Positions 6,927-47,808 of a stretch of DNA of 64,000 nucleotides are shown piece after piece. The first letter of the stretch is position 1. Each line of letters begins with the position of its first letter. Origin of the DNA: Marinimicrobium hydrolyticum (GTDB taxonomy: Bacteria; Pseudomonadota; Gammaproteobacteria; Pseudomonadales; Cellvibrionaceae); assembly GCF_030848505.1 (NCBI RefSeq), contig NZ_JAVDDU010000005.1, forward strand, positions 1-64,000. Reading direction: 5' to 3'. A program made the translations under genes and the position numbers. The notes below the pieces were generated by a model that was not told the DNA's origin, did no database searches, and saw only the letters and a program-made list of their open reading frames with translations.

Positions 6927-8591
6927 ATGAAAAAGAACAACGACATTCGCCGACAAGGCTTGGGCGTCGCCTTCTTGCTGATCTGTTTAGGCCTGCTGGT
7001 GGCCTGCTCGGGCAGTAGTAGCGGGGACTCTGACCCTAACCCTGAATCTAATTCTGAACCTAACTCTGAATCTAACTCTGACTCCAGCTCCGGTGAAGGA
7101 ACTGGCGTATTCATCGATAGCCCGGTGGAAGGGCTCACCTACAAAACGGACAGTGGCACCGGCACCACTGATGAGCAAGGACGGTTTGAGTATGAGCCCG
7201 GAGAAATCGTTACCTTTTTTATTGGTGAGACATCCATCGGTGTGGCTCCCGGTGCGGCGGTTGTGACCCCCTACGATTTGGTCGAGAGTGCTGATGAAGA
7301 AGAGTTGAGTCGAGCAATCAACATTGCCCGGCTGTTGCAAAGTCTGGACGATGACCTCGACCCGGACACCGGAATCCGGCTGATCCCGGAAGCCAAAGAC
7401 CTTCCGCAGAATCTGGACTTTCGGGACGAATTTACACTGGCCGATGCACTCGGGCAGGTCCGGCCTGGCGTAGCCTTAGTGGATGCGGAAACCGCCCAGG
7501 CCCACCTAGATGCCAGTGTTGCCGAGGCGGTTCCTCTGCCTGAGGACCAAACCTTTCATGCCGTGACCCACGGTCAGTGGGTAGGGAACTTGGCCCCCCT
7601 CGATACCAGTTGCATGGACGACTGGAACGACGTCACGGTGACCATGACACAGCAGGCGGATGGCCGTACTCACTACGAAGGCAGCATGACTGGCGCACAG
7701 GGATTAGCCGATACCTTTGCCTTTAGCGGCAGAGCTCGCAATAACAGCGTCGGGCAGTCCCAGGGTGGGGAATACATCCACGTGGGCTTGTACACCTGGA
7801 TTGAGCCCGGTGGTTTGGTGGGTTCGGGCATGGTGCTAGACATCGGCGACCGCTATGGCTGCATTACCCGGTTCGTGCTCAAGGGCGAAAATGCCGAGAA
7901 TCAGCTTCCAGTCTCCTATGTTTCCCAGACTCGGGTTGGCATTTGTACGAGCGAATACAGCGAAGTGCGCTGGAATGAGTACACGATTAACTCTTACGAC
8001 ATAGATGGCTATATTCCCGATGCACCGGTTTACTATGAAATCCGCAACGGACAGGAGAGCGGTCCCTTTCCCATGACCGCAGAATGCATTGGTAATGATT
8101 GTGAAAGGTTCAATGACAGGCCGTCGCGCCGGATTGACCGGCTGACAATTGACGATCTCCCCTGCTTTGAGAGTATGGACCGCACTATCGAAATCGAGGT
8201 GACTGACAATGAAGGCGGTTCACGGCGAGTTCGTATCGCGACGGCTGATGAGGGTCAGGGAGAGGATGTAGACATAGGTGATTCGGCGGCATTTCAATTT
8301 TGCGCCGATGATTATCCGGTATTGTATTGCGACGGTGTAAGGGAAGCATCCGATCAACGGTATTGGTTTACTTGGAGTTTATTTGACAGTTGTTCGGACC
8401 TGTACGCTGAAACCGACGATATTGGACTCGAGCGGGTCGTGGAGGACTGGTCGGGTCGGGATGACACCGCGATCACCCTGCCCAACGGTGACGTTGTCGA
8501 TCCCGAGCCCCGGAGCCCTGATTACAGGGAAGATAGTGATAGCCGCGGCTCCTGCTGTATCAGCACTGAGTATGAAGGTTGTCCTCAATGA
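6927..8591 (+). CDS. lipoprotein with acidic linker, unknown function
   Basis: Predicted lipoprotein of 554 residues. The signal peptide ends in the lipobox LLVAC with Cys27. After it comes a low-complexity linker of SNSEPNS-type units (about residues 31-50). Then follows a small domain, GVFIDSPVEGLTYKT..TDEQGRFEYEPGE, of a kind common in lipoproteins of marine gammaproteobacteria and resembling carboxypeptidase-regulatory-like folds, ending in INIARLLQSLDDD. The rest (about 200-554) is not recognised; it holds many cysteines (for example AECIGNDCERF), which suggests disulfides in the periplasm or at the surface. The ATG at 6927 is chosen over an earlier in-frame ATG (6885) because AAGAGG at 6915-6920 precedes it and it gives a proper signal peptide. 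Probably co-transcribed with the next lipoprotein gene, 38 bases downstream. Confidence 0.75.
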   Translation: MKKNNDIRRQGLGVAFLLICLGLLVACSGSSSGDSDPNPESNSEPNSESNSDSSSGEGTGVFIDSPVEGLTYKTDSGTGTTDEQGRFEYEPGEIVTFFIGETSIGVAPGAAVVTPYDLVESADEEELSRAINIARLLQSLDDDLDPDTGIRLIPEAKDLPQNLDFRDEFTLADALGQVRPGVALVDAETAQAHLDASVAEAVPLPEDQTFHAVTHGQWVGNLAPLDTSCMDDWNDVTVTMTQQADGRTHYEGSMTGAQGLADTFAFSGRARNNSVGQSQGGEYIHVGLYTWIEPGGLVGSGMVLDIGDRYGCITRFVLKGENAENQLPVSYVSQTRVGICTSEYSEVRWNEYTINSYDIDGYIPDAPVYYEIRNGQESGPFPMTAECIGNDCERFNDRPSRRIDRLTIDDLPCFESMDRTIEIEVTDNEGGSRRVRIATADEGQGEDVDIGDSAAFQFCADDYPVLYCDGVREASDQRYWFTWSLFDSCSDLYAETDDIGLERVVEDWSGRDDTAITLPNGDVVDPEPRSPDYREDSDSRGSCCISTEYEGCPQ

Positions 8592-8629
8592 TTGTCTTGC
8601 TCACGCATAGAAATCTGTGGGAGGCCACA

Positions 8630-10825: not shown

Positions 10826-10882
10826 CCACCGATATGCCCATCTGCAGGCGTCAGAGTTGCCTGCGGTGAGGTGTCAGATAAT

Positions 10883-10905
10883 CGGCGGCGAGGGAGTCGC
10901 CGCCG
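10883..10905. terminator. hairpin between convergent genes
   Basis: Nine-bp stem CGGCGGCGA / TCGCCGCCG with a 5-base loop, placed in the short gap between the RCC1 lipoprotein gene and the convergent hydrolase gene. It lacks a T-run on either side, so it is only a possible terminator. Confidence 0.4.
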
Positions 10906-10911
10906 GGAACC

Positions 10912-11688
10912 TCAGGCCAGGAGCGAGCGCAGTGTCCGCGTAAAGTCCTTTGGTTGCTCGAACTGTGGGAAGTGGTGGCTGCCGGGAATTACCTGCTCCA
11001 TCACATTCCCCGCACAGCGGTTACGGGCCGGTTCGGAAATATGTTCACCATTGATAGCGTGAATAGGGCAGTGCAATTCGGCAAAGGCCGCATCCGGTGA
11101 CCAGCGCAGCAGATCGGCCCAGATAGGTAACATCTTTTCCGGGTCAGCGCTGGCCATACGCTGTTTGATCCAGTCCCTCGTGGCCTCGTCCAACTCGGGC
11201 ACGGTGGTGTTATCGACCAGATAGTGCATGGCCCCGACAAAATCCTGCTGAAAGGGCGTCTCAATGCTGGCGATAGTTTCAGCATCCATGTCGCCATAGG
11301 GCAAGCCAAACGTATCCACTAGCACTACGCCCCCAAGCTGGCCGCCGTTTTGAGCCCACAATCTGGCGGCCTCCAGGGCTACGGTACCGCCCATGGAATG
11401 GCCCACCAGCGTCAGTCGGTCGGCCCCCGCTCTCTGCGCTGCGGCAACGACAAGCCGGGCCAAGCCGACGATGGTCCAGTCAGCCCAGTCGACATCGGCG
11501 GATTTGCCATGCCCTGGCAGATCCAACACCATCATGTGTCGCTCGTCCCCCAGCGCTGCCAAAACGGCATCCCAATCGCTGCCCTGGCAGCTCCAGCCGT
11601 GCAGAAAAAGGATTAGCTCTCCTTCCTCGCCAACGACTTTGCTGTGCAGCTGTGCTGCGACATTGGCTATAGGTGCAGCAGAATTCAT
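10912..11688 (-). CDS. alpha/beta-fold hydrolase
   Basis: Cytoplasmic alpha/beta-hydrolase of 258 residues. The oxyanion-hole motif FLHGWSCQGSDW lies at about 28-39, the nucleophile Ser98 in GHSMGG, and the catalytic histidine in PGSHHFPQFEQP near the C terminus, with a helical cap at about 135-195. No signal peptide. The family includes esterases, epoxide hydrolases, haloalkane dehalogenases and C-C hydrolases; sequence alone does not choose between them. It is transcribed divergently from the LuxR-type regulator gene across 136 bases, which suggests that this regulator controls it. Complete. Confidence 0.8.
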   Translation of the reverse strand: MNSAAPIANVAAQLHSKVVGEEGELILFLHGWSCQGSDWDAVLAALGDERHMMVLDLPGHGKSADVDWADWTIVGLARLVVAAAQRAGADRLTLVGHSMGGTVALEAARLWAQNGGQLGGVVLVDTFGLPYGDMDAETIASIETPFQQDFVGAMHYLVDNTTVPELDEATRDWIKQRMASADPEKMLPIWADLLRWSPDAAFAELHCPIHAINGEHISEPARNRCAGNVMEQVIPGSHHFPQFEQPKDFTRTLRSLLA

Positions 11689-11824
11689 ATCGACCTCCGT
11701 ATGTTATTTTTGGTGCACAATCGGTCCCGCGATCCGAGAGGATTTAGACACCCATTGGTAAATCCTCTACATTTACGATAAATTTGACGTTAAAACAAAC
11801 TTTTCTGGCTGATTCTAACACCCA

Positions 11825-12979
11825 ATGAATGACACTCAACTGGAACAGCGCTTCGAAACCCGCCAGGAACCGCTACTGGATAAGCTCTACAGCAGCGCAC
11901 TCGACGCCGGTCAATGGCAGCACTTTCTGGGAGAGCTGATACACGCCACCGACTCGCGCTCCGCTCGCCTGCTGGTGCTCAACAAAAGTGCCGACGAGGT
12001 GCTGCACAGCACCAAGGTCAACATCGACGACCGGGACCATCAGCGCTACATCGAACACTACGTTAATACCTGCCCCTGGCGACTCGAGCTGGCACAGAAA
12101 CCCCGGGGCCAACTCTATTCGACTTTTCACGACTTCAGCTGCCGCCAACCGGCGTTCTACCAGACCGAGTTTTTTAATGACTGGGCCCGTCATCTGGATA
12201 TTCATCACGGTATCTGCGGCACCGTCTACCAAACTGAAGAGTACAAGGTGCAGCTGCTGGTTCAGCGAACCCACGGGCAGGGGCCCTATTCACAGCGCGC
12301 GACTCAATTGGTCAACGGCCTGTTGCCCCATATGCGCCAGACGTTGCGCTTAAGCAGGCAGTCACAGCATCAGGCGGCGCCTGTGTGGGGCGCGGCCGCG
12401 GCCGCCGAGATGCGCGCGCTGCCGTTTATCCTGTTTGATAAGGCGGGCCGGGTTGTACATGTCTCCCAGGCTTGTGAACACTTAATACAGCAGGGCGAGT
12501 TGGATATCGTCAACCAACGCCTGGTGCTTGCGGAGCCCGCAGTGCAGCAACGCTTTCACGCGGCCTTCACAGAAGTAACTCAGGTGAGCGGCACCCTCGC
12601 TCGGGAGGCCGCACTGAATATCCGACGCCCAGGCCAACCGACCCTGCGCTGTATGCTCACGCCGATAGCACCCTCGGCAAACGTCGCCAAACTCTGGCCC
12701 TGTCCCGCCCACGTGGCACTCTACATCTACGACCCCGAGCAGGCCCTTACCATCGACCAGAATGCATTGATCGCAATGTACAACCTGACCGACAGTGAGG
12801 CCCGCGTCGCCGTCGATATCGCCCAGGGGTTAGACCCGCAATTTATCGCCGAACGCGACAACCGCTCTACCCACACGGTGCGCGCGCAGCTGAAGTCGAT
12901 ATTCAACAAAACCCTCTGCCATCGCCAAAATCAGCTGGCTGCGCTGATATTGCAGTCTCCCGCAGCACGCCGTTACTGA
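11825..12979 (+). CDS. LuxR-family transcriptional regulator
   Basis: Protein of 384 residues. The C-terminal part (about 312-380) is a LuxR-type helix-turn-helix: YNLTDSEARVAVDIAQGL, then IAERDNRSTHTVRAQLKSIFNKT, then RQNQLAALIL. The N-terminal 300 residues are a presumed sensory region without a named domain that I can identify; it contains a PAS-like segment around FILFDKAGRVVHVSQACEHLI (about 200-220). This arrangement is common in gammaproteobacterial regulators that sit beside a hydrolase gene. Likely binds in the divergent region 11689-11824 and regulates the hydrolase (inference). The ATG at 11825 has no strong ribosome binding site. Confidence 0.8.
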   Translation: MNDTQLEQRFETRQEPLLDKLYSSALDAGQWQHFLGELIHATDSRSARLLVLNKSADEVLHSTKVNIDDRDHQRYIEHYVNTCPWRLELAQKPRGQLYSTFHDFSCRQPAFYQTEFFNDWARHLDIHHGICGTVYQTEEYKVQLLVQRTHGQGPYSQRATQLVNGLLPHMRQTLRLSRQSQHQAAPVWGAAAAAEMRALPFILFDKAGRVVHVSQACEHLIQQGELDIVNQRLVLAEPAVQQRFHAAFTEVTQVSGTLAREAALNIRRPGQPTLRCMLTPIAPSANVAKLWPCPAHVALYIYDPEQALTIDQNALIAMYNLTDSEARVAVDIAQGLDPQFIAERDNRSTHTVRAQLKSIFNKTLCHRQNQLAALILQSPAARRY

Positions 12980-13321
12980 CAGGTCCTCCCCGTTCGCCAG
13001 CTGATCGTCCGCGCTACTGGCTGTATGCGGCGTGGGCGCCCCGATCCTAAATTTCCCCCGCCCCGATGGTGACCCTAAAGAGGTTAATCGCCGCCCGCCA
13101 GTGGCTTTTTCCGCATTTTTGAACTATAAAGATCCCCACTGTTATGATGTTTTAGGTGCCAGCACTTTCATTCGAGGCAGCGGCGTTCTTTTTCCTGATT
13201 ACACTCAGGAGCGCCAATTGGCCGTAGGCGGACACTGGTGAAGTGCTGCAGCAGGGCACTGAGGCCAATAATGTGGGCGAACCCACTTTTTAGACATAAT
13301 AAACCGAGAGGAATGACAACA
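12980..13321. other. intergenic region with a small terminator-like hairpin
   Basis: Between the LuxR gene and the NIPSNAP gene. A 69-codon plus-strand frame (13032-13241) has no ribosome binding site or recognisable domain and is not called. At 13273-13291 there is a compact hairpin GTGGG-CGAA-CCCAC followed by TTTTT, about 30 bases before the NIPSNAP start; it could end the upstream transcript or attenuate the next gene. Confidence 0.45.
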
Positions 13322-13732
13322 ATGAAAATTAGCGCACTAACTCAGACTCTCTCAGTCTGCCTACTTTTTTCCCTGGCTGTGATCGCGCAAGCGGACTCGG
13401 CTACTGTCTTTGAACTGAGAACCTACACGACCCACGAAGGAAAACTCCCTGCCTTGAATGAGAGATTCACTAACCACACGGCCGGGCTGTTTGAAAAGCA
13501 TGGAATGCGAAATGTAGGCTATTGGGTGCCCAGCGATCCTGATAAATCAGGCAACACGCTGATCTATATCCTTGAGCACAAAAGCCGTGAAGCCGCGGCT
13601 CAAAGTTGGCAGGCGTTTATAGACGATCCCGACTGGCAGAAGGCGTATAAAGAATCGAGAGAAGATGGACCGATTGTTAAGCATATCGACTCCGTTTTTA
13701 TGACCGCCACAGAGTATTCTGCAATTCGTTAA
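13322..13732 (+). CDS. NIPSNAP-family protein with signal peptide
   Basis: A 136-residue protein. The first 24 residues are a signal peptide (ending VIAQADS), so the protein is probably periplasmic. The mature part has the NIPSNAP pattern: VFELRTYTTHEGKL at the start, FEKHGMRNVGYWVP in the middle and WQAFIDDPDWQKAY, with a final strand ending in VFMTATEYS. NIPSNAP proteins are small alpha/beta dimeric ferredoxin-like proteins of uncertain biochemical role. ATG 13322 is chosen because GAGAGGA lies at a proper distance, whereas the ATG at 13313 abuts it. A hairpin follows the gene. Confidence 0.8.
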   Translation: MKISALTQTLSVCLLFSLAVIAQADSATVFELRTYTTHEGKLPALNERFTNHTAGLFEKHGMRNVGYWVPSDPDKSGNTLIYILEHKSREAAAQSWQAFIDDPDWQKAYKESREDGPIVKHIDSVFMTATEYSAIR

Positions 13733-13758
13733 ATCTTACTTAACTCGTATTTCTCACC

Positions 13759-13786
13759 ATTGGGGCAGCCAGCGTGCTGCCCCAAT
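13759..13786 (+). terminator. hairpin after the NIPSNAP gene
   Basis: Perfect 11-bp stem (ATTGGGGCAGC / GCTGCCCCAAT) with a 6-base loop, 27 bases behind the stop codon. No T-run follows; it may protect the mRNA end or terminate weakly. Confidence 0.5.
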
Positions 13787-13816
13787 TGACAAGTTGCGTG
13801 CCTGTTTTAACTCTTA

Positions 13817-13858
13817 GCCATTTGGATTTGGTGTGAATAAGTGCTTTAATCAAATGGC
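13817..13858 (+). promoter_or_regulatory. inverted repeat upstream of the GH11 xylanase gene
   Basis: GCCATTTG (13817-13824) and CAAATGGC (13851-13858) form perfect 8-bp arms 26 bases apart, about 100 bases before the xylanase start. Candidate regulator binding site or leader structure; no factor can be named. Confidence 0.35.
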
Positions 13859-13955
13859 GCCACAACGACTACCGTTGATTGAATTACCTCAAATTACAAA
13901 AGGTTCATCGCTTCGTTGAAAGTGTGAATCTTATACATAAAAGGAGGATCAAATT

Positions 13956-14771
13956 TTGAAAAACATTTTCCAAAAGACTACGATTTTACTGACGGTATGC
14001 GGTCTCGCAAGCTGTGCAGCGGAGCAAGACGACGCAGAAACAATGAATGATGCTGCTGCGGCGCCGGCCGTTAGTAACATCGACAAGTTCGAGGCCTACA
14101 CTCAAAGATTCTCCGAAACCACTGAAATTACCCAGCATCATGCAACCGGTCACGTTGGTGATTTTTTCTTCACCCATTGGAAGGACGGTGGCGCTGCGTC
14201 ATTAACCTTGAGCCCAGAGGGTGACTTCAGTGTTAGCTGGGAAGGCGGTGGCTACAATTACGTAGGCGGCCCTGGCTGGCATTACGGTGATGAAGATAGG
14301 GTTATTGGTTATCGCTTCGACGAGGACAGCGGTGCTAGCTACATCACCTTGTATGGCTGGGGCTACGACGAGACTATGTCCACATCAGATCCGGCACACC
14401 TGGTGGAGTACTACGTTCTGCAACGGTGGACCTATGACCCCAGCCAAAACGCTGAATATGGCACGACTTTCGTCAGCGATGGCATTGAGTATTCTACTTA
14501 CCGTTCCGTGCGGGAGGAAAAGCCCTCAATCAACGCGCCGTCCACTTTCTACCAATACTGGAGCAAACCCGCTGAGCAACGTCCGCTTGGTGAAGACCAG
14601 AAGATCATCTTCGCCGACCACGTGCAGGCGTGGGCCGAGTCTGGCTGGATTATTCCGGACATGAACAACTTCGATGCGAGCGATGACCCCACCTATCAGG
14701 TCATGGCTGTAGAGGTTTTCAATCCGCCGGAGGACGGTACGGCATCTGGCCAAGTCTGGGATGGTCGATAA
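13956..14771 (+). CDS. GH11 endo-1,4-beta-xylanase, lipoprotein
   Basis: Glycoside hydrolase family 11 xylanase, a retaining enzyme that cleaves internal beta-1,4-xylosidic bonds. Family motifs are in order: FSVSWEGGGYNYVGGPGW, ITLYGWGYD, LVEYYVLQRW, EYSTYRSVREEKPSI, TFYQYWSKP and DHVQAWAESGW. The nucleophile is Glu151 (in VEYYV) and the acid/base is Glu253 (in MAVEVF). The N terminus is a lipoprotein signal (GLASC, Cys21), followed by an Ala/Asp-rich linker, so the enzyme is probably membrane-anchored. The start is TTG, supported by a near-perfect ribosome binding site (AAAGGAGG, 13940-13947, 8 bases upstream). Length 271 is normal for one catalytic domain and there is no carbohydrate-binding module. 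Confidence 0.92.
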   Translation: MKNIFQKTTILLTVCGLASCAAEQDDAETMNDAAAAPAVSNIDKFEAYTQRFSETTEITQHHATGHVGDFFFTHWKDGGAASLTLSPEGDFSVSWEGGGYNYVGGPGWHYGDEDRVIGYRFDEDSGASYITLYGWGYDETMSTSDPAHLVEYYVLQRWTYDPSQNAEYGTTFVSDGIEYSTYRSVREEKPSINAPSTFYQYWSKPAEQRPLGEDQKIIFADHVQAWAESGWIIPDMNNFDASDDPTYQVMAVEVFNPPEDGTASGQVWDGR

Positions 14772-14904
14772 AAACTTCATTATAACCCTGTGGAACCGGC
14801 GCCATGACGAGTATGAGTGATTGAACGATGGTTGCTGCTGGATCGTGCCTAAATTCGGTGATTGGCGTATTATATTGATTCGGTCCGAATAACCGTAGGT
14901 TGGG

Positions 14905-15381
14905 ATGATGGAAAAGTTGTTTCAAAGTAGTCGGTTTGCGGTGGTAGTTGCCGTCATTGTCACGGCTGTGTCGGCTGCTCTCCTGTATCTTGTCAGTATT
15001 AACCTCTTGTTTAATACGGTGGTGGGAGTGTTCATGAACGTCCCCGAAACCACCGATCAGGGGAAAAACCTGGTCGTGACTCTGCTCAAATTGCTCGATA
15101 TTACGCTTATCGCCATTACCCTGCATTTGGTGGCGGTCAGTCTTTTCCGGTTGTTTATCACGCCCATTAAGGCGACTGAGAGTACGTTTCTCAATATTTT
15201 GAATATCAAGGATTTTCAGGATCTTAAGATCACCATCATCCATGTGTCTGTGGTTGTAATGACTATCCTTTTCCTAGAGCACGCGGTTGAGCAAGGCGCG
15301 TCATTGGAGTCGCTTTATTTCGGTGCCGGTATCGCGCTGGTGATATGGGCATCCGTTTATGCCTCCGGGAAGATGCACTAG
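14905..15381 (+). CDS. YqhA / UPF0114-family membrane protein
   Basis: Inner-membrane protein of 158 residues with four hydrophobic segments (about 12-34, 55-80, 108-125 and 135-153). The order and content fit the YqhA (UPF0114) family: an N-terminal SSRFAVVVAVIVTAVSA, LLKLLDITLIAITLHLVAVSL with FRLFITP, and LNIKDFQDLKITIIHVSVVV in the second half. Biochemical function unknown. ATGs at 14905 and 14908 are both possible. It stands alone, 133 bases behind the GH11 gene. Confidence 0.8.
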   Translation: MMEKLFQSSRFAVVVAVIVTAVSAALLYLVSINLLFNTVVGVFMNVPETTDQGKNLVVTLLKLLDITLIAITLHLVAVSLFRLFITPIKATESTFLNILNIKDFQDLKITIIHVSVVVMTILFLEHAVEQGASLESLYFGAGIALVIWASVYASGKMH

Positions 15382-15583
15382 CAGTTCTATCGCGCGCATG
15401 CCAACTGGTTGCCGCAAGGGTAGAGCGCCAGCTCCAATCCTGAGTGACTACTGGCGATTCAGCGATAAGTGGCGGCTTTTTGGTGTGATCATCGCTTCAC
15501 GCTTGTCCAGAATCGCCAACAGTCCAATGGCGGAAGGGCGTCATGTAAATACAATCGTGCTGGCGGCTACTTATAACTTGTAG

Positions 15584-15760
15584 CTAAACCCCTACCGGCC
15601 TACCTTCATTGTTGGCCAATACCCCTTTCGCACGGATGGGAGTGTCCATGGCAACGGCCATTCCTGGTTTGTAAATGCCATAACCTATCCGGCTCATCTC
15701 CACACCCCTGGACAATAAACTTTCGTCCAACAAAGGCGCGAACTGGCCCGTAACGGTCAC
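15584..15760 (-). pseudogene. small orphan reading frame, probable gene remnant
   Basis: A 58-codon minus-strand frame with a GTG start overlapping the stop of the frame described next (GTGA). Reading from the start it contains GQFAPLLDESLLSRGVEMS, RIGYGIYKPG and MDTPIRAKGVLANNEG, which look like real protein sequence rather than chance, but I do not recognise the family. It is either a very short gene or the C-terminal-type fragment of one. Neighbouring sequence is free of other genes. Confidence 0.4.
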
Positions 15761-37389: not shown

Positions 37390-37602
37390 ACAAAATGGCA
37401 GGACAGCCATTTTGCACAGCGCAGCTGCCCGAAGGGCGAGGCACAGGGAAGTGCCGGGTGACAAAATGGCAGGACAGCCATTTTGCACAGCGCAGCTGCC
37501 CGAAGGGCGAGGCACAGGGAAGTGCCGAGTGACAAAATGTCAGGACAGCCATTTTGCACAGCGCAGCTGCCCGAAGGGCGAGGCGCAGGGAAGTGCCGAG
37601 TG
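37390..37602. repeat. three 71-bp tandem repeats with internal palindrome
   Basis: Units begin at 37390, 37461 and 37532. Each holds a palindrome CAAAATGGC-AGGACA-GCCATTTTG (one change in unit 3), CAGCGCAGCTGCCCGAAGGGCGAGGC and GGGAAGTGCC. Copies are nearly identical. It does not resemble CRISPR because the whole unit is conserved without spacers. No coding gene is supported across it. Confidence 0.9.
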
Positions 37603-37623
37603 AATCCCGCCTGACTCCACCCA
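37601..37623 (+). other. tRNA 3'-end-like sequence, possible attachment-site scar
   Basis: The last repeat runs into TGAATCCCGCCTGACTCCACCC, which resembles the T-arm and acceptor end of a tRNA (compare CGATCCCGCTAGGCTCCACC of tRNA-Ala, 37281-37301). Sharing ATCCCGC and CTCCACC with the tRNA at about the same spacing, it may be a duplicated or foreign tRNA end left by an integrated element. Confidence 0.4.
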
Positions 37624-38244
37624 CCTTACCGCAGAGACATTCCTCTCCCATCCATTGCCTCGACGTTCTAACCCTGTAGTTAATCGAACCCTTTTGTAAT
37701 CGGTTACCACAAACACGTTCCTGATTCAGGCTGCAAATGCGCACCGCGTCATGGCGAAGGCCGCACTGATACCGCGCGTTGAGAATGTAAAGACGTTTGG
37801 AGGCTGTTGCCTTTGAGCTTTTACCGTACTATGCTCCGGCCAAACTGTTATCGGTTACATTTCGATGGCAAGTTTTGGGTTTTCTGGTTAAGCCGACTCG
37901 AGATTGGTGGCCAGTGGGTCCAGCGCTTTGAGTAACCAGCTTGGGGATGACAGGGGTGCGAGAAGGGTGGTGTTACAAATAGTAACACGATCGCGCCCAG
38001 GCTTTCTTTACTGAAAGCGCACATATAAGCATCAGTATCAGCTGCTGGGTAGGCCATTGCCACCTCGGACATGCCTGAGATGAGTGGGTTCGGGAGAGCA
38101 TATGCGGCAGCTCCACAGCTTCGCAGATAACTGCAGTTAGCCGGTACTGGTTAAAGCTATTACTTCAGTGCCAAGCACGGTTCGTCTCACGAAGCCGGTC
38201 TTTGTGCGGAAGATAATAATTTTGCTATAACAAAGGAGAGTTTC
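37624..38244. promoter_or_regulatory. regulatory region upstream of the TonB receptor
   Basis: About 620 bases with no supported gene. Two similar palindromic 12-mers stand out, GTAATCGGTTAC at 37696-37707 and GTTATCGGTTAC at 37847-37858. They have the GTAA-N4-TTAC form, with a CG pair in the centre, seen in LacI-family operators near sugar-uptake genes. A good ribosome binding site (AAAGGAGAG) precedes the receptor start at 38245. Promoter elements could not be placed with confidence. Confidence 0.5.
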
Positions 38245-41200
38245 ATGAACCCCAATAAAACTCGTTTCAAAAGAAAGCTCATGGCCGTGGCTGTGGCGTC
38301 TTATGCAATGTCGGGCCTCAGTACCACAGCGGTTGCACAAACCGATGAGATGCTCGAAGAGGTTGTTGTACGCGGTATCCGTGCCTCAATTGAGACATCC
38401 ATCAACACCAAGCGTGACGCGGCGACCGTAGTGGACGCCATCACCGCTGAAGACATCGGTAAGCTACCCGACGTCACCATTTCTGACTCTTTGCAGCGGA
38501 TTTCCGGCGTTCAGATTCGCCGCAGTGCGGGTGAAGGTTCATCGGTAAACATTCGTGGTTTGCCCCAAGTGGTAACCCAACTCAACGGCGAGCAGTTCCT
38601 GGGCTCAAGCTCCGTTGTTTCTGTTCAACCCAACTTCAACGAAATCCCTTCACAGTTGTTCCGTGGCGCGGACGTCTATAAGTCGGCCACCGCCGACCTG
38701 AACCGTGCCGGTATTACCGGTACTGTGGATCTGAAAACCTACCGACCGTTCGATTTTGATGAAGGCCTCACGGCTGCAGGCAGTTTTGAAGTCAGCACGG
38801 GCGAAGAGACGGGTGAGTTCGATCCGATGATTTCCGGTCTGGTTAACTGGCAAAACAACCGCGTTGGCTTCATGCTCGCGGGTACATACTCCAACGTAAA
38901 TCTCGCCAATACTTACGCTGGCGTTAGCGCGGGTAGTCCGGACGCTGGGGGTGCGGCGGGCTGGACTGGTCGTAGCAACGATGGGAATGTGATCGGCAAT
39001 ATCACAGGAGATCCGCTGGCCAACCTGGGCGGTGTTGACCTGGTAGATCAGGGTCGCAGCTACCTGTCACAGGAAGGCATACTGGCCTGGCATCAGGTTA
39101 CAGAGCGTGAGCGTATCGGGCTAAATGCATCGTTTCAGGCCGACCTAGGTGAAGGTTGGACCCTGACCAGTGACTGGTTCTATGCGAACCGTGAGGAGTA
39201 CAACCGTAAAGTGGGCGTTGCTGCCACCAACAAATGGCAAGGTAATGATTGGTCCTATCCCACGGCTTCGCGTGATACGGGCGAAGAGTTGGACGGAAAC
39301 GATTTCCACACTTGGCAGGTTGGCGAGATGGCACCCAAGCGTTTGGCATCGTTGACTCAGAACGACGTCTTCGATAACACGTCGCGCAACGTCAATGTCC
39401 AATTGGATTACGACAATGGTGGTCCGTTCACAGCGACATTCCGTGGTGTGTTTGGTAGTGCCGAGCAGACTCGTCGCATGGCCTTCAACGAAGGTGATCT
39501 GACCAACGCCTCCTCCACCTTGGGTCGCACCACCAATTTTGTACCCGGTGAGCAGTGCACCAACGGCGAGGAGATTGTCGGTGATGAAGGTGGTTGCTTC
39601 CAGGCCATCAATCCTCTGGGTTACTCTGAAAACCCGCACATCACATACGATACCAGCGGTTCTCACCCCCATTGGAGCGGTTTTGACCGTCAGCTGGCTG
39701 GCGGCTTGGGCGCGGGTAACACCACTGCCGACTATATGAGCAACCTCGATAGCTACAATGTTGGTGCCTACGCGTCCGAGAACAACGAAGACGCCAAAGG
39801 TACGCTAACGGCATTGAGCCTTGCGGGTAGCTATGAAATTGAAAACAATTTCTTTACCAGTGTGGACGCCGGTGTCCGCCTGAGCACCCGTACGGCGGAT
39901 TACTCTCGTTGGAACTATATGGCACCGGCCAATAACACCGAGTGTGAAGCTCAGTGGTTGGCCACCGACGTTGAGTTGGAGTCAGACGTGTGCAGCGCAG
40001 GCGAGACAGTGGATGGCGAGTTTGTTCCCTACATCGCGCTGGGCAATACCCGTCTGGATGAAAACAACAACGCTATTTGGGTTGACGACTTTGGGTCCGT
40101 GACCGGCATCCCCGGCGTTTGGGCCACAGATCCGCGTGACTATGATGATCCCGTCGCCTTTATGGAGCGCACTTTCGGTGAAGGTAGCCGAGTTCCGGTA
40201 CCGGGCTCTACCTTTTACGTAGAAATGGAAGAGTTGTCCTACTACTTGCAGGGTAACTTTGAGGTTGGTGCTTTGACGGGTAACGTCGGCGTCAAGGTGA
40301 TTGAAACTGACCTTCTGGTTCAGCAAAACATCGCTGGTCCCGGTATTCCGTTCGGTAACTTGAACGAAGACGCCGGTGATGTATTCACTGCCCGCAGCTA
40401 CACTGATGTGCTTCCCTCCGTTAACCTGGCTTACAACCTGACCGATGACTTGGTACTGCGTGCAGCCTACACGCAGGCCATGGTTCCCTTGAACCTGAAC
40501 CAGTACGGTGACGGTTTGGTGCTGAACTACACCATCGATTCAGCCGAAGGCAGCCCCACTGAAGGTGACTTTATCGTCTCTGGTGGTAGCTTGAGCGGTA
40601 ACCCACAGTTGGATCCCTGGCGTTCAGACAACTATGACCTCTCTCTCGAGTGGTATGTCGGGCCGGCGTCTATGTTAAACGTTGGTTTGTTCCGGGTTGA
40701 GATCGACAGTTTTACCGAAGGTCAGACTGTGCAGATGGAGCAGCCCGACGCCGATGGTGTGGTGCGTCGATCTGTACCCATTAACACGACCGGGCAAGGC
40801 AGTGGTGGTACCCTGGAAGGTATTGAGTTGGGCGCGAAGATCGCGTTTGGCGACTTCCTGGATGGGTGGATTGCTGACTTCGGTATAGATACCAACTTTA
40901 CCTATTCGCCCAGTGAGGGTGAAGGGGAAGATATTCAAGGCAATACCAACCCCTTCCCGGACAACTCGAAAGAGCAGTTTAACTTCTCTTTGTGGTACGA
41001 GAGCAATCGCTTCCAGGCGCGTATTGCGCACAACTATCGCAGTGAACGTCTGGCTGCGACTGGTGCCGCGTGGGGTGCTCTGAACGTGTATCAGAAAGCC
41101 ACCAATTACATCGACCTTTCTGCTACCTACGATATCAACGATAATATTAGTGTCTTCTTCCACGGCTCTAACATTACCGGCGAAATCGAAGAGTACTACT

Positions 41201-41277
41201 TCGAGTGGGACGATCAGTTGGCGTTTCAGAGTTACTTTGAGCCGCGTTACTCTCTGGGTGTTCGAGCTCGGTTCTAA
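38245..41277 (+). CDS. TonB-dependent outer-membrane receptor
   Basis: TonB-dependent receptor of 1010 residues. A signal peptide ends at about AVAQ (32); a plug domain follows (DAITAEDIGKLPDVTISDSLQ, RISGVQIRR, VNIRGLPQVVTQLNGEQFLG), then the long beta-barrel, ending in the outer-membrane-type YSLGVRARF. This is the long type (TIGR01782-like) found in carbohydrate-scavenging proteobacteria, rather than a short siderophore receptor. It should import an oligosaccharide or another large molecule, energised by TonB/ExbBD, which are not in the window. Followed after a terminator by a flavin-dependent halogenase gene and a cupin gene, an arrangement typical of such receptors. Confidence 0.92.
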   Translation: MNPNKTRFKRKLMAVAVASYAMSGLSTTAVAQTDEMLEEVVVRGIRASIETSINTKRDAATVVDAITAEDIGKLPDVTISDSLQRISGVQIRRSAGEGSSVNIRGLPQVVTQLNGEQFLGSSSVVSVQPNFNEIPSQLFRGADVYKSATADLNRAGITGTVDLKTYRPFDFDEGLTAAGSFEVSTGEETGEFDPMISGLVNWQNNRVGFMLAGTYSNVNLANTYAGVSAGSPDAGGAAGWTGRSNDGNVIGNITGDPLANLGGVDLVDQGRSYLSQEGILAWHQVTERERIGLNASFQADLGEGWTLTSDWFYANREEYNRKVGVAATNKWQGNDWSYPTASRDTGEELDGNDFHTWQVGEMAPKRLASLTQNDVFDNTSRNVNVQLDYDNGGPFTATFRGVFGSAEQTRRMAFNEGDLTNASSTLGRTTNFVPGEQCTNGEEIVGDEGGCFQAINPLGYSENPHITYDTSGSHPHWSGFDRQLAGGLGAGNTTADYMSNLDSYNVGAYASENNEDAKGTLTALSLAGSYEIENNFFTSVDAGVRLSTRTADYSRWNYMAPANNTECEAQWLATDVELESDVCSAGETVDGEFVPYIALGNTRLDENNNAIWVDDFGSVTGIPGVWATDPRDYDDPVAFMERTFGEGSRVPVPGSTFYVEMEELSYYLQGNFEVGALTGNVGVKVIETDLLVQQNIAGPGIPFGNLNEDAGDVFTARSYTDVLPSVNLAYNLTDDLVLRAAYTQAMVPLNLNQYGDGLVLNYTIDSAEGSPTEGDFIVSGGSLSGNPQLDPWRSDNYDLSLEWYVGPASMLNVGLFRVEIDSFTEGQTVQMEQPDADGVVRRSVPINTTGQGSGGTLEGIELGAKIAFGDFLDGWIADFGIDTNFTYSPSEGEGEDIQGNTNPFPDNSKEQFNFSLWYESNRFQARIAHNYRSERLAATGAAWGALNVYQKATNYIDLSATYDINDNISVFFHGSNITGEIEEYYFEWDDQLAFQSYFEPRYSLGVRARF

Positions 41278-41317
41278 GCCGTGTGAAAGCCTGAACCGCG
41301 TTTTGGTTTAGGTGAAG

Positions 41318-41361
41318 CCGCCGGAAGTTACGCTGCAAGGCGAGTCTCCGGCGGTTTTTTT
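41318..41361 (+). terminator. rho-independent terminator after the TonB receptor
   Basis: Stem CCGCCGGA / TCCGGCGG followed by seven Ts (41355-41361), between the receptor and the halogenase gene. It may lower expression of the halogenase relative to the receptor instead of separating the units fully. Confidence 0.85.
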
Positions 41362-41385
41362 CGTTTTTGCTACAGGGATAAGAAT

Positions 41386-42891
41386 ATGTCCAATAATCCA
41401 GTAGAAAGCGTTGTAATTGTAGGTGGCGGTACAGCCGGGTGGATGGTCGCGGCCAGTTTGTCCAACTTATTTGGCAAACGTCTAAAAATCACCTTGGTGG
41501 AGTCCTCTGAGATCGGCACCGTCGGTGTGGGCGAAGCCACCAACGCCACCATTCGGCGATTTTACGGCCGCCTGGGCATGACCGATTTTGACGTGCTTCG
41601 GGCCACCCAGGGCACTTGCAAACTGGGAATTCGCTTCGACAACTGGCATCAGAAAGGCCACTCTTATTTCCACCCTTTTGGCGTATACGGCCAAGAGGTT
41701 CGGCAGGTTCAGTTCCACCATTTCTGGCTAAAAATGCGCGAGATGGGTGATCAGACCCCACTCGATGATTATTGCCTCGGCACCACCTTGGCAATGCACG
41801 ATAAGTTCACCACGCCCAGTCCCAATCCGCCGTCGAGCCTTTCAGTATTTGATTGGGCTCTGCATTTCGACGCTACCTTGTTTGGCCATCTGATGCGTGA
41901 TTTTGCGATTGACAAGGGTGTGCGCCGAGTGGACGCCAAGGTCTCCAACGTAAATCTGAATCCCGATAATGGCTTTATCGATTCTGTGACCTTGGAGGGG
42001 CACGATGCGCCCCTGGCAGGGGACTTGTTTATCGACTGCTCGGGCTTTAAAGCTTTATTGATTGAAGGTGCTTTAAAGACGGGCTATGAAGATTGGAGCC
42101 AGTGGCTGCCCACCGACAGTGCCGTAGCCGTGCAGAGCGAATCCGTGGGCGAGCCGCACCCCTACACGGTATCTACAGCTCATGAGGCGGGCTGGCAATG
42201 GAACATCCCGCTACAGCACCGACAGGGGAATGGCCATGTGTATTGCAGCGAGTACATCAGTGACGATGAGGCCACGGAAGTCCTTATGCGCAACATCGAC
42301 GGCCCTTTGAGCAGTGATCCGAAAATGTTCCGCTTTGTACCGGGGCGTCGAAAAAAAGCCTGGAACAAGAACTGTATATCCGTTGGCCTGGCCTCCGGCT
42401 TTCTTGAACCTCTGGAAAGCACCGCCATTGCGCTGGTGGAAACCGCCATTGAAAAAATTCGGCTGTTGTTTCCGGACAAAAGCATGCCCCAGGGGTGCAT
42501 TGATGAGTTCAATGATATGACCCGTTTGGAGTATGAACGGGTTCGGGACTTTATTATTTTGCACTACCACGCCACCGCCCGTACCGATGCGCCTTTGTGG
42601 AATCACTGCCGTACCATGGAGATTCCCGAGCCCCTGGCCCATAAAATGAAACTGTTTAAACAGCGCGGTCATTTGGTGAAGTACCGTTGGGAAATTTTTC
42701 AACCGGCCAGTTGGCTCGCGCTCTATTCCGGCAACAATATTTACCCGGAAATGTACGATCCCAGAGTGGACACCTTTGACATGAACTACGTCAGAAAAAG
42801 CCTGGCGGAGATGAAAAAGTCCCTACAATCGGCTATGGAGCCGCTACCGAGCCATGGAGAATTTATTCGGAAAAATTGCTACTACCGCTAA
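41386..42891 (+). CDS. flavin-dependent halogenase (tryptophan halogenase family)
   Basis: A 501-residue protein of the PrnA/RebH-like family, which uses FADH2, O2 and halide to form HOX and halogenate an aromatic substrate. FAD motif VGGGTAGWM lies at about 12-20; the catalytic lysine is Lys79 (GTCKLGI), the same number as in PrnA; the WxWxIP halogenase motif is GWQWNIP (about 268-274) and EPLEST, with the second key glutamate, is at about 341-346. All hallmark residues are intact. The substrate is unknown: members beside TonB receptors form their own subgroup and some brominate indoles in vitro. A flavin reductase is not adjacent. Confidence 0.9.
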   Translation: MSNNPVESVVIVGGGTAGWMVAASLSNLFGKRLKITLVESSEIGTVGVGEATNATIRRFYGRLGMTDFDVLRATQGTCKLGIRFDNWHQKGHSYFHPFGVYGQEVRQVQFHHFWLKMREMGDQTPLDDYCLGTTLAMHDKFTTPSPNPPSSLSVFDWALHFDATLFGHLMRDFAIDKGVRRVDAKVSNVNLNPDNGFIDSVTLEGHDAPLAGDLFIDCSGFKALLIEGALKTGYEDWSQWLPTDSAVAVQSESVGEPHPYTVSTAHEAGWQWNIPLQHRQGNGHVYCSEYISDDEATEVLMRNIDGPLSSDPKMFRFVPGRRKKAWNKNCISVGLASGFLEPLESTAIALVETAIEKIRLLFPDKSMPQGCIDEFNDMTRLEYERVRDFIILHYHATARTDAPLWNHCRTMEIPEPLAHKMKLFKQRGHLVKYRWEIFQPASWLALYSGNNIYPEMYDPRVDTFDMNYVRKSLAEMKKSLQSAMEPLPSHGEFIRKNCYYR

Positions 42892-43103
42892 GCGCCTGCC
42901 TCTGATGGTGGGCCGACACCGTTACGCTACTCGACATGCGGGCATGGTGAGGGATGTGAGGTGAACCTTTACCGTAAGTCATCAGTCCATCAACACTTCT
43001 TTACTTTTTGAGCTGGTACCATGGCTGGGAGCGTTGCTTGGCGACGCATCGTTTTTCGCCAGGAAATGCCTGGTGCCAGATTAATCCAGACTTTGATGTT
43101 GTT

Positions 43104-44111
43104 ATGTCCTTGCCGAGAGTAAAAGAGTGGCACAATGTCACTCGGGAAATGTTTGAACAGGAAATTGTGCCGCGCTATGAGCCAGCGATACTCAGGGGGC
43201 ATGTGAAGGACTGGCCGGTGACCCGCCAGAGCCTGAAGTCTGCTGAATCCGCAGCACGCTATGTATCCCAGTTTGACAGCGGCAGACCGGTACTCTCCTG
43301 GGTGGGTGAGCCATCCATCGAAGGTCGGTTTTTTTATAACCGCGACCTGAGCGGAATGAACTTCCAACAGGTGCAGGCCGAACTCAGGCCCACGTTAAAT
43401 CGCATCCTGTCCCTGAGCGGGGAGGAACGGCCTCCGGCACTCTATGTGGGTGCTACCTCAGTCGCAGATTCCCTGCCGGGATTTGCCCACGAAAATCCTT
43501 CGCCGTTGGTGGATAAAGCAATTATTCCCAACATTTGGCTGGGTAATCAGGTCACCATTTCTGCTCATTTTGATACGTCTGACAACATCGCCTGCGTGGT
43601 TGCGGGCCGGCGTAAGTTCACCCTGTTTCCTCCCGAGCAAGTGTCCAACCTGTATGTAGGTCCTATTGACTTCACGCCGGCGGGACAGCCTATCAGCATG
43701 GTGTCGGTAAAGGAGCCGGACTTTGAGCGTTTTCCGCGCTTTAGACAAGCGCTGGCGGCGGCCAAAGTAGCTGAGCTTGAGCCGGGCGACGCGATTTATA
43801 TACCTTCATTGTGGTGGCACAACGTAGAGGCAACGGAAGATTTCAATATTCTGATCAATTACTGGTGGGAAGACTCAGTGCCGGGAGTAGGGTCGCCCTT
43901 CGATGCACTGGTACATTCGACTCTTACCACGTCCAGTTTGCCGCCGGAAAAGGTAGCCGCTTGGAAGAGTATGTTCGATCACTACGTGTTTGAACGCGAA
44001 CAGCAGTCCGCTGAGCATATTCCTCCTGAGCGTCGCGGCCCCTTGGGCAAGATGACACCACGAGTGGCGGCTTATGTTCGCAACTATTTACGCGGTGTGC
44101 TGAACCGTTAG
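43104..44111 (+). CDS. cupin-like / JmjC-domain protein (Cupin_8)
   Basis: A 335-residue member of the Cupin_8 / JmjC-like Fe(II) and 2-oxoglutarate dioxygenase superfamily. It has the double-stranded beta-helix metal motif HFD (SAHFDTSDN, about residue 154) and a distal histidine (PSLWWHNVEA, about residue 238). ILRGHVKDWP near the start and RRKFTLFPPEQV are typical of the family. Likely hydroxylates a protein or small molecule. The ATG at 43104 is chosen because the conserved part begins there; a TTG at 43008 is possible, and neither has a clear ribosome binding site. Part of the receptor-halogenase locus, 212 bases behind the halogenase gene. Confidence 0.82.
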   Translation: MSLPRVKEWHNVTREMFEQEIVPRYEPAILRGHVKDWPVTRQSLKSAESAARYVSQFDSGRPVLSWVGEPSIEGRFFYNRDLSGMNFQQVQAELRPTLNRILSLSGEERPPALYVGATSVADSLPGFAHENPSPLVDKAIIPNIWLGNQVTISAHFDTSDNIACVVAGRRKFTLFPPEQVSNLYVGPIDFTPAGQPISMVSVKEPDFERFPRFRQALAAAKVAELEPGDAIYIPSLWWHNVEATEDFNILINYWWEDSVPGVGSPFDALVHSTLTTSSLPPEKVAAWKSMFDHYVFEREQQSAEHIPPERRGPLGKMTPRVAAYVRNYLRGVLNR

Positions 44112-44118
44112 CCGCGGC

Positions 44119-45642
44119 TCAGGAGTCATCAGCTGAGCAATGGCGGCGGATGAATTCCTGGTGCGTGGGCGCCTGCTCGGCGGCGGCGCGAATGGCCGTG
44201 CGCATTTGTGCCAGCTGTTGTTTTAATTGCGCCTCGTCAATCCAGTCCGCTCTCGGGTCATAGTGTTGTGGCAGTATGCCGAAGCCGTGATACATGGTGA
44301 CCCAACTGGCCTCTTCAAAAGACTCTCCTTCGTAGCTCACCAGATACCCTCGGTCCTTGAATAGGGCGACCTTATGCGCAAGCGTGTCGGGCACGGACAT
44401 GTCACGGGTAAGGCGCCACAGCGGTGTGTCGTCCCGCTGTGTGCCTTTGTAATGGAGAATAATGAAATCCCGGATGCGTTCGTATTCGTTTCGGGATTGG
44501 CGGTTAGCCTCTTCGATGCAGGCCGGATTGAAGCTTTGGTCCGGGAAGAAATACAACAGCCGGGAGATGGCCGTCTGTATTAAAGAAATACTGGTGGATT
44601 CCAACGGTTCCAAGAAGCCGGAAGCCAGACCGATGGCGACACAGTTTTTGTGCCAGAACTTTTTGCGCATGCCAGTAGTGAATCTGAGCGGTTTGGGATC
44701 ATTGAGTGCTTTACCGGGCAGGTGTGACAGCAACGTCTGACAGGCTTCATCTTCACTGATTAAATCGCTGCAATACACATAGCCGTTACCGGTGCGGTGT
44801 TGCAGGGGTATGCGCCACTGCCAACCCGCCTCACGGGCGGTGGAGCGGGTAAAGGGCGCGGGTGGTTCGGCTCCGGACTCGCTGGGCACGGCTAGAGCAC
44901 GATCACAGGGCAACCAGTGGGTCCAAGTTTCGTAGCCGGTCTGCAGGGCTTCTTCTATCAGAAGGCCTCGAAACCCAGAACAATCCACAAACAAATCGGC
45001 TGTAAAAGACTCGCCGTTGTCCAATGTAACGGACTGAATAAATCCTGTGTCCGGCTCTAGGGAAACCTGCTCAATCACACCATCTTGCTTGAGCACGCCT
45101 CGCTCAGTCGCCCAGTTGCTTAAATACTGCGCGTACAGTCCAGCATCGAAATGAAACGCGTAGTTGTACCGGGCCAAAGGTGTGGGCGGATTTGGATTGG
45201 GCTGTGCGAAGCGGCCCAATTGCGCCATGATCGCCGGCAGCGAGTATTCTTCGATGGAGTGGGGTTGTTCCAGCGTTTGAAGTTTGTGCCAAAGGTGATG
45301 AAAATCCGCGCCGCCCAAAGGTAAACCGTAATCCGCGAACGGATGAAAAAAGCGCGTGTTGAGCTTGCACCAGTCAACAAACTCGATGCCGAGTTTGAAA
45401 GTCGCCTGGGTTTTTTTTACGAAATCCAGCTCATCGATGCCCAGGCTATTGTTAAAGTCGCGGATGCCCGGCAGCGTGGCTTCACCGACGCCCACGGTAC
45501 CGATCTGGGAAGATTCGATCAGGGTAATTGAGACTGGCCGTTCACGCAGAAAATTGGCCAACGCCGCAGCCGTCATCCAGCCAGCGGTGCCGCCCCCAAC
45601 AATGACAATATTTTCAATGGGTTTGTGTTGTGGGCTTCGCAT
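44119..45642 (-). CDS. second flavin-dependent halogenase
   Basis: A 507-residue paralogue of the first halogenase, convergent to the cupin gene (7-base gap). FAD motif VGGGTAGWM (about 15-23), catalytic lysine Lys83 (ATFKLGIEF), GWQWRIP and EPLEST are all present, so it should be active. The two proteins agree over their length but differ clearly, so this is an old duplication or separate acquisition. AGGAAG lies just before the ATG. It is 33 bases downstream of the RNase II gene on the same strand and could be transcribed with it. Substrate unknown. Confidence 0.9.
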   Translation of the reverse strand: MRSPQHKPIENIVIVGGGTAGWMTAAALANFLRERPVSITLIESSQIGTVGVGEATLPGIRDFNNSLGIDELDFVKKTQATFKLGIEFVDWCKLNTRFFHPFADYGLPLGGADFHHLWHKLQTLEQPHSIEEYSLPAIMAQLGRFAQPNPNPPTPLARYNYAFHFDAGLYAQYLSNWATERGVLKQDGVIEQVSLEPDTGFIQSVTLDNGESFTADLFVDCSGFRGLLIEEALQTGYETWTHWLPCDRALAVPSESGAEPPAPFTRSTAREAGWQWRIPLQHRTGNGYVYCSDLISEDEACQTLLSHLPGKALNDPKPLRFTTGMRKKFWHKNCVAIGLASGFLEPLESTSISLIQTAISRLLYFFPDQSFNPACIEEANRQSRNEYERIRDFIILHYKGTQRDDTPLWRLTRDMSVPDTLAHKVALFKDRGYLVSYEGESFEEASWVTMYHGFGILPQHYDPRADWIDEAQLKQQLAQMRTAIRAAAEQAPTHQEFIRRHCSADDS

Positions 45643-45675: not shown

Positions 45676-47667
45676 TTATGTCTCTGGGTGCCAAGCCTTC
45701 AGTCGTTCGGCCATCTGCGGGTCTACCAGCTCCAAGGATATACGGCGCTGCTCTAAATCCACTTCGCTAATCACCACCATCAGTTTTTGATCCAGCTGAT
45801 AACGCTGATCGTCAAGGGTCAGGCTCAGGCGGCGGGCGTCAAAGCGTGGCTTGGGTGCATCTTTAGAGGCGAGCATAACAAAGCCTTCGAAACCGGACTC
45901 GTCCAAGCGCACGCCCACGCCGTTGGAGGTCACCAGTCCAATGGTACCCAGGTGCACACTACCGATTTTGTCACGGTAGTATTCGCACGCTAACCACTGT
46001 TCCTGTTGCCGGCAAGCCTGACGGCCCTTGGTCAGTTGCTGCTGTAAAGACTCCACCAATGCTGGGTCGATACGGGGCTCCAGGTTGCCGTGCAGTATTT
46101 GCTTAATCGCCAAATGATTATGAAAATCGTGATAGCGCCGAATAGGTGAGGTGACCGTGGCGTAATGCTGAAACCCCAAACCAAAATGCTCGCTGGAATC
46201 GAGTGACAAAGCACTGGCCTGAAGCATCCGTTGCAAAATCGGCAGCAATTGGGTGAAGCTCTCGTCTCCGTCCGGGTTCAGGCGCAGATCCTGCAATAGA
46301 CGTTGAAAATCGGGGAGGTTCTGTAAGTCGCCAACAGAGTATTCCGGGGAATCCTCTTCAAGCAGACTGAGGGCATCCTCCAGGCGTTCGGGGCGAAACC
46401 CTACGTGATTGGAAAATATACCCAGGCCGGGGTGTTGCGTGAGAAGTTTTCCCGCACAAATATTGGTGGCGAGCATGGCCTCTTCAACAATGCGGTGCGC
46501 CGGTGTGCGTTCGCGCTTTTCAATGCGTTCGATTTTCTTCTGGTCGTTCAGTATGTAGTAGTAATCGGCCCGATCTTCCATTACCAGGGCGTGATCCTGG
46601 CGATGTTGAGCGCGGGTTGCTGCAAACGCCTGCAACTCTTTCAGCATTGCCAGCACAGGGGCAGGCACGGTTGAGCACTCTGGATTCTCCAGCCACTCGG
46701 AAACACTTTGATAGTTGAGTTTGTGGTGAGAGCGTATCATGGCTTCGGTGAAACTGAATTCGCCGATGCTGCCATCCTGCCCAACATGCAGGGTGCAAAT
46801 CAGTGCCGGGCGTTGCTGATCCGGGACCAGGGAAAAGGTGTCATGGGACAACTCCGTTGGCAGCATGGTGATGCTTTGCCCCAGCAAATACACGGTGCTG
46901 GCGCGCCGTTGAGCTTCCTGGTCCAGGGGTGTTCCAGGAGCAATGAAACGGGTCGGATCGGCGATGGCGACTTTTAGATGCCAACCGGACTCTGTTGCTT
47001 CCAGATACACGGCGTCGTCCATATCCCGTGTATTTTCCGAGTCTATGGTCACGAAGGGCAGGTGAGTAAGATCTTCCTGTTCCTCCGCCAGAACAATGGG
47101 CGTGAGATTAATGGCCTGGGCTTGCTCCTGGGCTCGTACGGACCACTCGGTAGGCAGTTCGAATTTCGCCGTCAGGTAGCGGGCTTCAACGCCGGGTTCG
47201 CCCGGGCTGCCAAGCGGGGCGGTCGGTTTTACCTGCCCTTTGCCGTCATTTTTAAAAGGGTGCCGGGTCAATTTACCTTGCACGTAATCACCGTGGCGGT
47301 ATTCGCCCCGGTCTTGCGGCGCGACAAAAAGCCAACGATTAAACTGGGGGAAATCGGGCTCTATAAAGTGCGCCTTGCCGCGCACACGGTAGCGGCCCAC
47401 AAAGCGCGAGAATTCACTGTCGAGCAATTTTTCCAGGGTAGCTTCAAGTTGATCTTTTTTGTTGGTGGTCAGCGACACTTCCACCCGATCTCCGGGCAGG
47501 ACCTTTTGCGCTTCGTCCGGCGCGAGAAAGGCATCTTTGCCGTCATCGAGTCTGACAAACGCGAAACGCTTGGTCGTGGTACGAACCAGACCCTGAGAGA
47601 GATTCTTTTGCGATTGCAAACTGGATTTTAGTGCGGTGAGCTGCTGTAGGGCATTTTTGTCGAACAT
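45676..47667 (-). CDS. rnb: exoribonuclease II (RNB family)
   Basis: 3'-5' exoribonuclease of the RNase II/R family (663 residues), which degrades single-stranded RNA. N-terminal cold-shock-like domains, then the RNB catalytic core with TIDSENTRDMDDAVYLE (the metal-binding aspartates) and VTSPIRRYHDFHNHLAIKQ, and a C-terminal S1 domain. The length is close to E. coli RNase II and too short for RNase R. ATG 47667 is used; a GTG six bases upstream is possible. The halogenase gene follows at 33 bases, an odd pairing. Confidence 0.9.
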   Translation of the reverse strand: MFDKNALQQLTALKSSLQSQKNLSQGLVRTTTKRFAFVRLDDGKDAFLAPDEAQKVLPGDRVEVSLTTNKKDQLEATLEKLLDSEFSRFVGRYRVRGKAHFIEPDFPQFNRWLFVAPQDRGEYRHGDYVQGKLTRHPFKNDGKGQVKPTAPLGSPGEPGVEARYLTAKFELPTEWSVRAQEQAQAINLTPIVLAEEQEDLTHLPFVTIDSENTRDMDDAVYLEATESGWHLKVAIADPTRFIAPGTPLDQEAQRRASTVYLLGQSITMLPTELSHDTFSLVPDQQRPALICTLHVGQDGSIGEFSFTEAMIRSHHKLNYQSVSEWLENPECSTVPAPVLAMLKELQAFAATRAQHRQDHALVMEDRADYYYILNDQKKIERIEKRERTPAHRIVEEAMLATNICAGKLLTQHPGLGIFSNHVGFRPERLEDALSLLEEDSPEYSVGDLQNLPDFQRLLQDLRLNPDGDESFTQLLPILQRMLQASALSLDSSEHFGLGFQHYATVTSPIRRYHDFHNHLAIKQILHGNLEPRIDPALVESLQQQLTKGRQACRQQEQWLACEYYRDKIGSVHLGTIGLVTSNGVGVRLDESGFEGFVMLASKDAPKPRFDARRLSLTLDDQRYQLDQKLMVVISEVDLEQRRISLELVDPQMAERLKAWHPET

Positions 47668-47808
47668 GAACACAACTTATGGGTAGGGGCCGGCGAAACC
47701 GGAATCATAACAGGATTCTGTCCTCTGCGTTACCGAGGCCGCGTCTGCTCCGGCTTTCGGGGCGTTTCACTGCAGCGGCAGAAGTGAATCTATAGTACTA
47801 TTTGTGTC

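Follow-up and report, generated by a model that had tools for sequence, protein, structure and literature searches.

BrvH (PDB 6frl) is the nearest solved structure to both halogenases of the locus described here. The enzyme weakly brominates free indole in vitro, is reported to lack the residues that bind the amino and carboxyl groups of Trp, and has an active site that reportedly could accept larger substrates (doi 10.1371/journal.pone.0196797). Its gene, like those of our locus, adjoins a second halogenase gene, whereas a TonB receptor goes unmentioned in that paper. Among described uptake systems, our locus is also close to the CUT loci (Blanvillain et al. 2007, doi 10.1371/journal.pone.0000224), which likewise feature plant-glycan-type receptors and sugar-type operators. 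Also close are clusters from the same bacterial family that combine a TonB receptor, SapC, a Cupin_8 gene, halogenases, and DUF6445. They share the receptor, cupin, and halogenase families with our locus, which in contrast lacks SapC and DUF6445, uses a receptor and halogenases of other clades, and carries a convergent second halogenase. Such neighborhoods are reportedly mentioned in comparative-genomics work on JmjC-like oxygenases and in studies of the Xanthomonas N-acetylglucosamine locus. In the open-licence literature, of which our coverage was incomplete, we found nothing on receptor-linked halogenases accompanied by a cupin or SapC.

The association of halogenases with receptors is real, widespread, and poorly understood, and it is already recognizable as a kind. 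Hundreds of such halogenases exist in bacterial genomes (at least 588 relatives among the matches listed), and most of those sampled lie beside TonB receptors. In agreement with a preliminary description of this DNA, no natural substrate is on record for the halogenases or the cupin. New in this member are a probable regulon, a comparison with loci that lack the enzyme genes, and the expression layout. The preliminary description had overlooked the LacI-type operators with their link to mannan, the syntenic loci without a cassette, and the arrangement of terminator and RNase II gene. With a predicted inducer (beta-mannan), predicted operators, and orthologous receptors that share a chromosomal position but differ in whether the cassette is there, the locus makes a loose association open to experiment.

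The analysed 64,000-nt stretch of Marinimicrobium hydrolyticum DNA (the window) encodes a receptor, a halogenase, a Cupin_8 protein, and a convergent halogenase. All four genes are intact ORFs, confirming the grouping as first described. The TonB-dependent receptor (38245..41277, + strand, 1010 aa) has a signal peptide-like N-terminus and an EEVVV TonB box. It belongs to TIGR01782 (TonB-Xanth-Caul; 515 bits, curated cut-off 310), has plug and barrel domains according to Pfam, and is modeled with confidence as a TonB-receptor fold. When printed termini were compared by eye, no TonB box or N-terminal extension peculiar to halogenase-bearing receptors was seen. The receptor region is flanked by tRNA-Ala, a glutamyl-tRNA-synthetase-like ORF, and an RNB nuclease. 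A 71-bp unit is present in three tandem copies (97% alike; 37390-37603) on the stretch from tRNA-Ala(GGC) to the receptor, and its core recurs at just one other place in the genome, in two copies (G000:C29:127157-127246).

Halogenase 1 (41386..42891, + strand, 501 aa) and halogenase 2 (44119..45642, - strand, 507 aa) fill the PF04820 profile with 599 and 617 bits, and halogenase 1 is 55.7% identical to BrvH. The catalytic residues Lys79 and Glu344 (Lys79 and Glu346 in PrnA), which BrvH also possesses, are invariant in an alignment of 16 halogenases that includes both window copies, as are the GxGxxG flavin motif and the WxW motif. By profile, motifs, and catalytic residues, both genes encode flavin-dependent halogenases with predicted activity.

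The third enzyme is a Cupin_8 protein of about 335 aa (PF13621, 228 bits; + strand) whose start is likely the ATG at 43104 (43104..44111), whereas the mechanical ORF begins with a TTG at 43008. Its metal triad HxD...H (His156, Asp158, and His240, counting from base 43101) is invariant in 22 of 22 relatives. The key residues were thus rightly said to be present in the enzymes. The nearest solved relatives by sequence are FIH and JMJD5. The predicted structure (pLDDT 88) aligns best with JMJD5 (Z 26, 2.4 Å over 226 residues) and also with TYW5 and JMJD7 (Z 22-26), placing the protein in the JmjC double-stranded beta-helix fold with a predicted oxygenase function that would use Fe(II) and 2-oxoglutarate. 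It shares the fold and the metal-binding motif with JMJD5, JMJD7, FIH, and TYW5, but at about 20-25% identity only, and in the sequence alignment FIH Lys214 is matched by an Arg. Used as a single query against the named genomes, the cupin gave no match.

The preliminary description stated that such groupings recur in carbohydrate-degrading proteobacteria, and this holds. The host genome (3.99 Mb) encodes 13 full-length halogenases in six places, plus one split weak match, together with ten TIGR01782 receptors above the cut-off and three Cupin_8 genes. A TIGR01782 receptor lies next to five of these six places (binomial about 2e-7). In two of the other host places, receptor, SapC, cupin, halogenases, and DUF6445 form one run, an arrangement also found at nearly all of 20 cupin loci in relatives. 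Across the named genomes, searched with an alignment of halogenases, a receptor is in reach at 46 of 58 halogenase loci with long flanks, a lower limit because the receptor profile was built from gammaproteobacterial receptors.

The window receptor falls into a clade of 19 sequences (SH-aLRT 100), 15 of which are accompanied by halogenases and four of which are next to a halogenase cluster, whereas halogenases occur with just one receptor in the sister clade of 14. Without exception, the other halogenase-bearing loci of this clade (14 of 14) have a convergent halogenase that points toward the receptor from the opposite end. In the halogenase tree, first-position copies form one clade (13 sequences, support 100) that includes halogenase 1, convergent copies form another (16, support 98) that includes halogenase 2, and second copies mostly form a third. 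A receptor followed by one halogenase and faced by a convergent one is an old architecture among relatives. The window cupin occupies the slot that a second halogenase holds in seven of them. Different receptor clades use different halogenase clades. Across 13 loci, receptor identities correlate with those of the two halogenases (r 0.69 and 0.61), and the halogenases correlate more tightly with each other (r 0.95), although shared descent alone may explain these values because no species tree served as reference.

Two genomes of one other genus (loci L121 and L122) carry an orthologous receptor (46-48% identity) without halogenase or cupin. Their flanks match the window in the RNB nuclease (67-68%) and an antiporter-like gene (81-82%), but the gap between receptor and nuclease is about 80 bp, compared with 4.4 kb in the window. 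Since the same receptor persists at the same site without them, the enzyme genes form an optional cassette at a fixed position. Optional presence at a fixed site, like the runs of up to four halogenases, could also suit a cassette whose product is a halogenated defence compound or reactive hypohalite and whose place beside receptors reflects frequent gene exchange at uptake loci. We regard this as improbable, since the position-specific orthologs have been retained for long and the cassettes adjoin one receptor family rather than many kinds of genes.

Upstream of the receptor are two exact LacI-type operators, TGTAATCGGTTACC (37695..37708, + strand, 22.2 bits, 537-550 bp 5' of the receptor start) and TGTTATCGGTTACA (37846..37859, + strand, 20.95 bits). 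Scored with a matrix derived from other loci, both exceed the best hit in 20 shuffled windows (18.65). The genome contains nine exact sites, among which are three pairs spaced <160 bp, one of them the window pair; random placement gave at most one close pair in 20,000 trials. Matches with one mismatch were at background level in the genome scan, and only exact or matrix-scored operators were therefore used. The other sites precede a GH5-CBM10 gene whose product is closest to beta-mannanase 1bqc, a gene for a mannan-binding/CBM35 protein found with a receptor and GH26, and a separate GH26 gene. A further site lies inside a divergent cluster, between an SSF symporter-GH130-epimerase-GH5 run and MFS-LacI.

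Relatives show similar patterns. The operator stands 5' of the receptor in 10 of 14 loci of the sister clade, and comparable operators (20.9 and 22.8 bits) are found at L112 and L113, which hold the closest orthologs of the receptor. Halogenase 2 groups with a halogenase (L136) that adjoins GH130 and epimerase genes. In the relative G021 (putatively Marinimicrobium agarilyticum), GH130, GH26, and GH5 genes carry the operator. There the window cupin has its closest relative (54%; L062:8233-10649), encoded after the GH5 mannanase gene, which stands behind two operators, with no halogenase or receptor nearby; the cupin can therefore serve without them.

Since its operators also precede the mannanase genes and the GH130/epimerase cluster of the same genome, the receptor probably belongs to a beta-mannan regulon. 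Some caution applies to the mannan assignment, as related LacI regulators have similar-looking operators; those in the window also sit farther 5' (400-550 bp) than those at other loci, and at L112 the neighbor is a GH3 gene and not a mannanase. In CUT loci, the neighbors of the receptor are genes for glycosidases, inner-membrane transporters, or regulators. Here, no glycosidase or inner-membrane sugar transporter gene adjoins, and the link to sugar utilization runs through the shared operator only. The locus departs from a classical CUT locus in gene adjacency and resembles one just in its probable regulation. Elsewhere in the genome, a perfect mannan-type operator (G000:C30:55021, L056:9022) is followed by genes for a sugar-binding protein and a chemoreceptor, a pairing that perhaps serves chemotaxis to manno-oligosaccharides.

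A terminator-like hairpin with a T-run (41314..41361, + strand, -25.9 kcal/mol, z -2.9) occupies the gap between the receptor and halogenase 1. Similar hairpins follow most receptors, whether halogenases are present or not, and also occur in most halogenase-bearing loci. Enzyme genes behind such a hairpin would therefore need either read-through or separate promoters; a sigma-70 scan found no promoter for the receptor or cassette genes. Outside the cassette, and useful as a marker of synteny, is the gene for an RNB-domain exoribonuclease resembling RNase II (45676..47673, - strand). Halogenase 2 may be transcribed with it because it begins 33 bp downstream on the same strand. Co-expression of the four genes, as first assumed, is doubtful: given a terminator-like hairpin that sets the receptor apart from halogenase 1, and given that halogenase 2 trails the RNase II gene, a single expression unit is unlikely.

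The glycosidases that adjoin halogenase-bearing receptors vary widely (pullulanase, amylase, GH67, GH94, GH9, GH20, GH3 with GH16, and GH130), implying starch, xylan, beta-glucan, chitin, and mannan. Several of these glycans have no aromatic groups. Together with the correspondence between halogenase and receptor clades, this variety speaks against an aromatic attached to a particular glycan as the substrate and favors the receptor or another shared target. It weakens the initial proposal of an aromatic carried with plant polymers, by which the enzymes would detoxify or assimilate compounds such as lignin-linked or phenolic fragments of mannan or xylan. Likely co-regulation with mannan enzymes suits that proposal, and cytoplasmic enzymes could meet such a compound once it is inside the cytoplasm, but delivery by the receptor reaches the periplasm only. 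Moreover, esterase and aromatic-catabolism genes are absent among the neighbors examined, and the glycans at pullulanase/amylase, GH20, and GH94 loci do not bear such aromatics. We consider this route unlikely, and detoxification, which had been offered separately, found no specific evidence.

The substrate could instead be an endogenous small aromatic (indole, phenol, or amine), converted to a signal or modified metabolite for which the receptor would be the route of release or retrieval, with the sugar regulon setting the timing. The activity of BrvH on free indole fits this possibility, as do the tight pairing of the two halogenases, expected of successive steps on one molecule, and the 12 of 58 halogenase loci with no receptor in reach (an upper limit). 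Biosynthetic, export, and carrier genes are, however, absent from the locus, the same type of cassette occurs in many glycan contexts, and the halogenase clade changes with that of the receptor. We entertain a small aromatic tentatively.

We prefer a protein target, as the fold relatives of the cupin mostly hydroxylate proteins (JMJD5, JMJD7, and FIH) and the BrvH site could admit larger substrates. Modification of the receptor itself, one of the roles proposed initially, is compatible with the data, but its expected trace did not appear: the conservation comparison of receptors found no aromatic residue or His that tracks halogenase presence. The clade-specific Cys438, Cys451, and His474 are missing from the L136 receptor, which does have a halogenase; they lie in a long loop of the receptor model and would be explained by ligand specificity. 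The orthologous receptors that persist without a cassette in L121 and L122 also count against the receptor as target, as does the closer correlation of the two halogenases with each other than with the receptor. Because the conservation test gave no support, we hold protein modification as tentatively as the small aromatic, on a level with it.

In the protein-modification model, the receptor would import oligosaccharides derived from beta-mannan (or glucomannan) through the outer membrane, controlled with the mannan regulon through the paired operators. The optional downstream cassette would supply cytoplasmic enzymes, held below the receptor in expression by the terminator. Two halogenases would put Br or Cl onto aromatic side chains; hydroxylation of a side chain would probably be the task of the JmjC-fold cupin. 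Their most likely target would be a protein encountered at every such locus, with the receptor polypeptide prior to export as the foremost candidate. The sequence itself shows the gene identities, the operators, the synteny, the clade structure, and the hairpin, whereas ligand, in vivo regulation, catalysis, and target are inferences. The combination of mannan-regulon receptor and protein-modifying cassette is a speculative proposal. Somewhat more speculative still is its extension, in which dedicated halogenases and a JmjC-type hydroxylase modify TonB receptors before export as an optional upgrade, a bacterial protein-halogenation system spanning alpha-, beta-, and gammaproteobacteria.

Other loci hold variations on these components. 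A very divergent halogenase-like protein (L019:10443-11897, 193 bits), in which the catalytic Glu motif was not found, has a normal halogenase on either side in a locus that follows a receptor and is perhaps a non-catalytic partner. DUF6445 proteins (L016:10998-11732, L016:13303-14010, and L017:16143-16832) conserve an HxD...H motif together with a late Arg (at least 90% across 11 sequences), a pattern resembling Fe(II)/2-oxoglutarate oxygenases. The only host halogenase place without an adjoining TIGR01782 receptor (L018:5054-6592; G000:C12, about 314.6 kb) has a LysR-looking ORF before it and, after it, the gene for a 2462-aa surface-type protein (7124-15585) with DUF4347, a lactonase propeller, and Ig domains. 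An OmpA-like barrel is also encoded there, beyond the halogenase.
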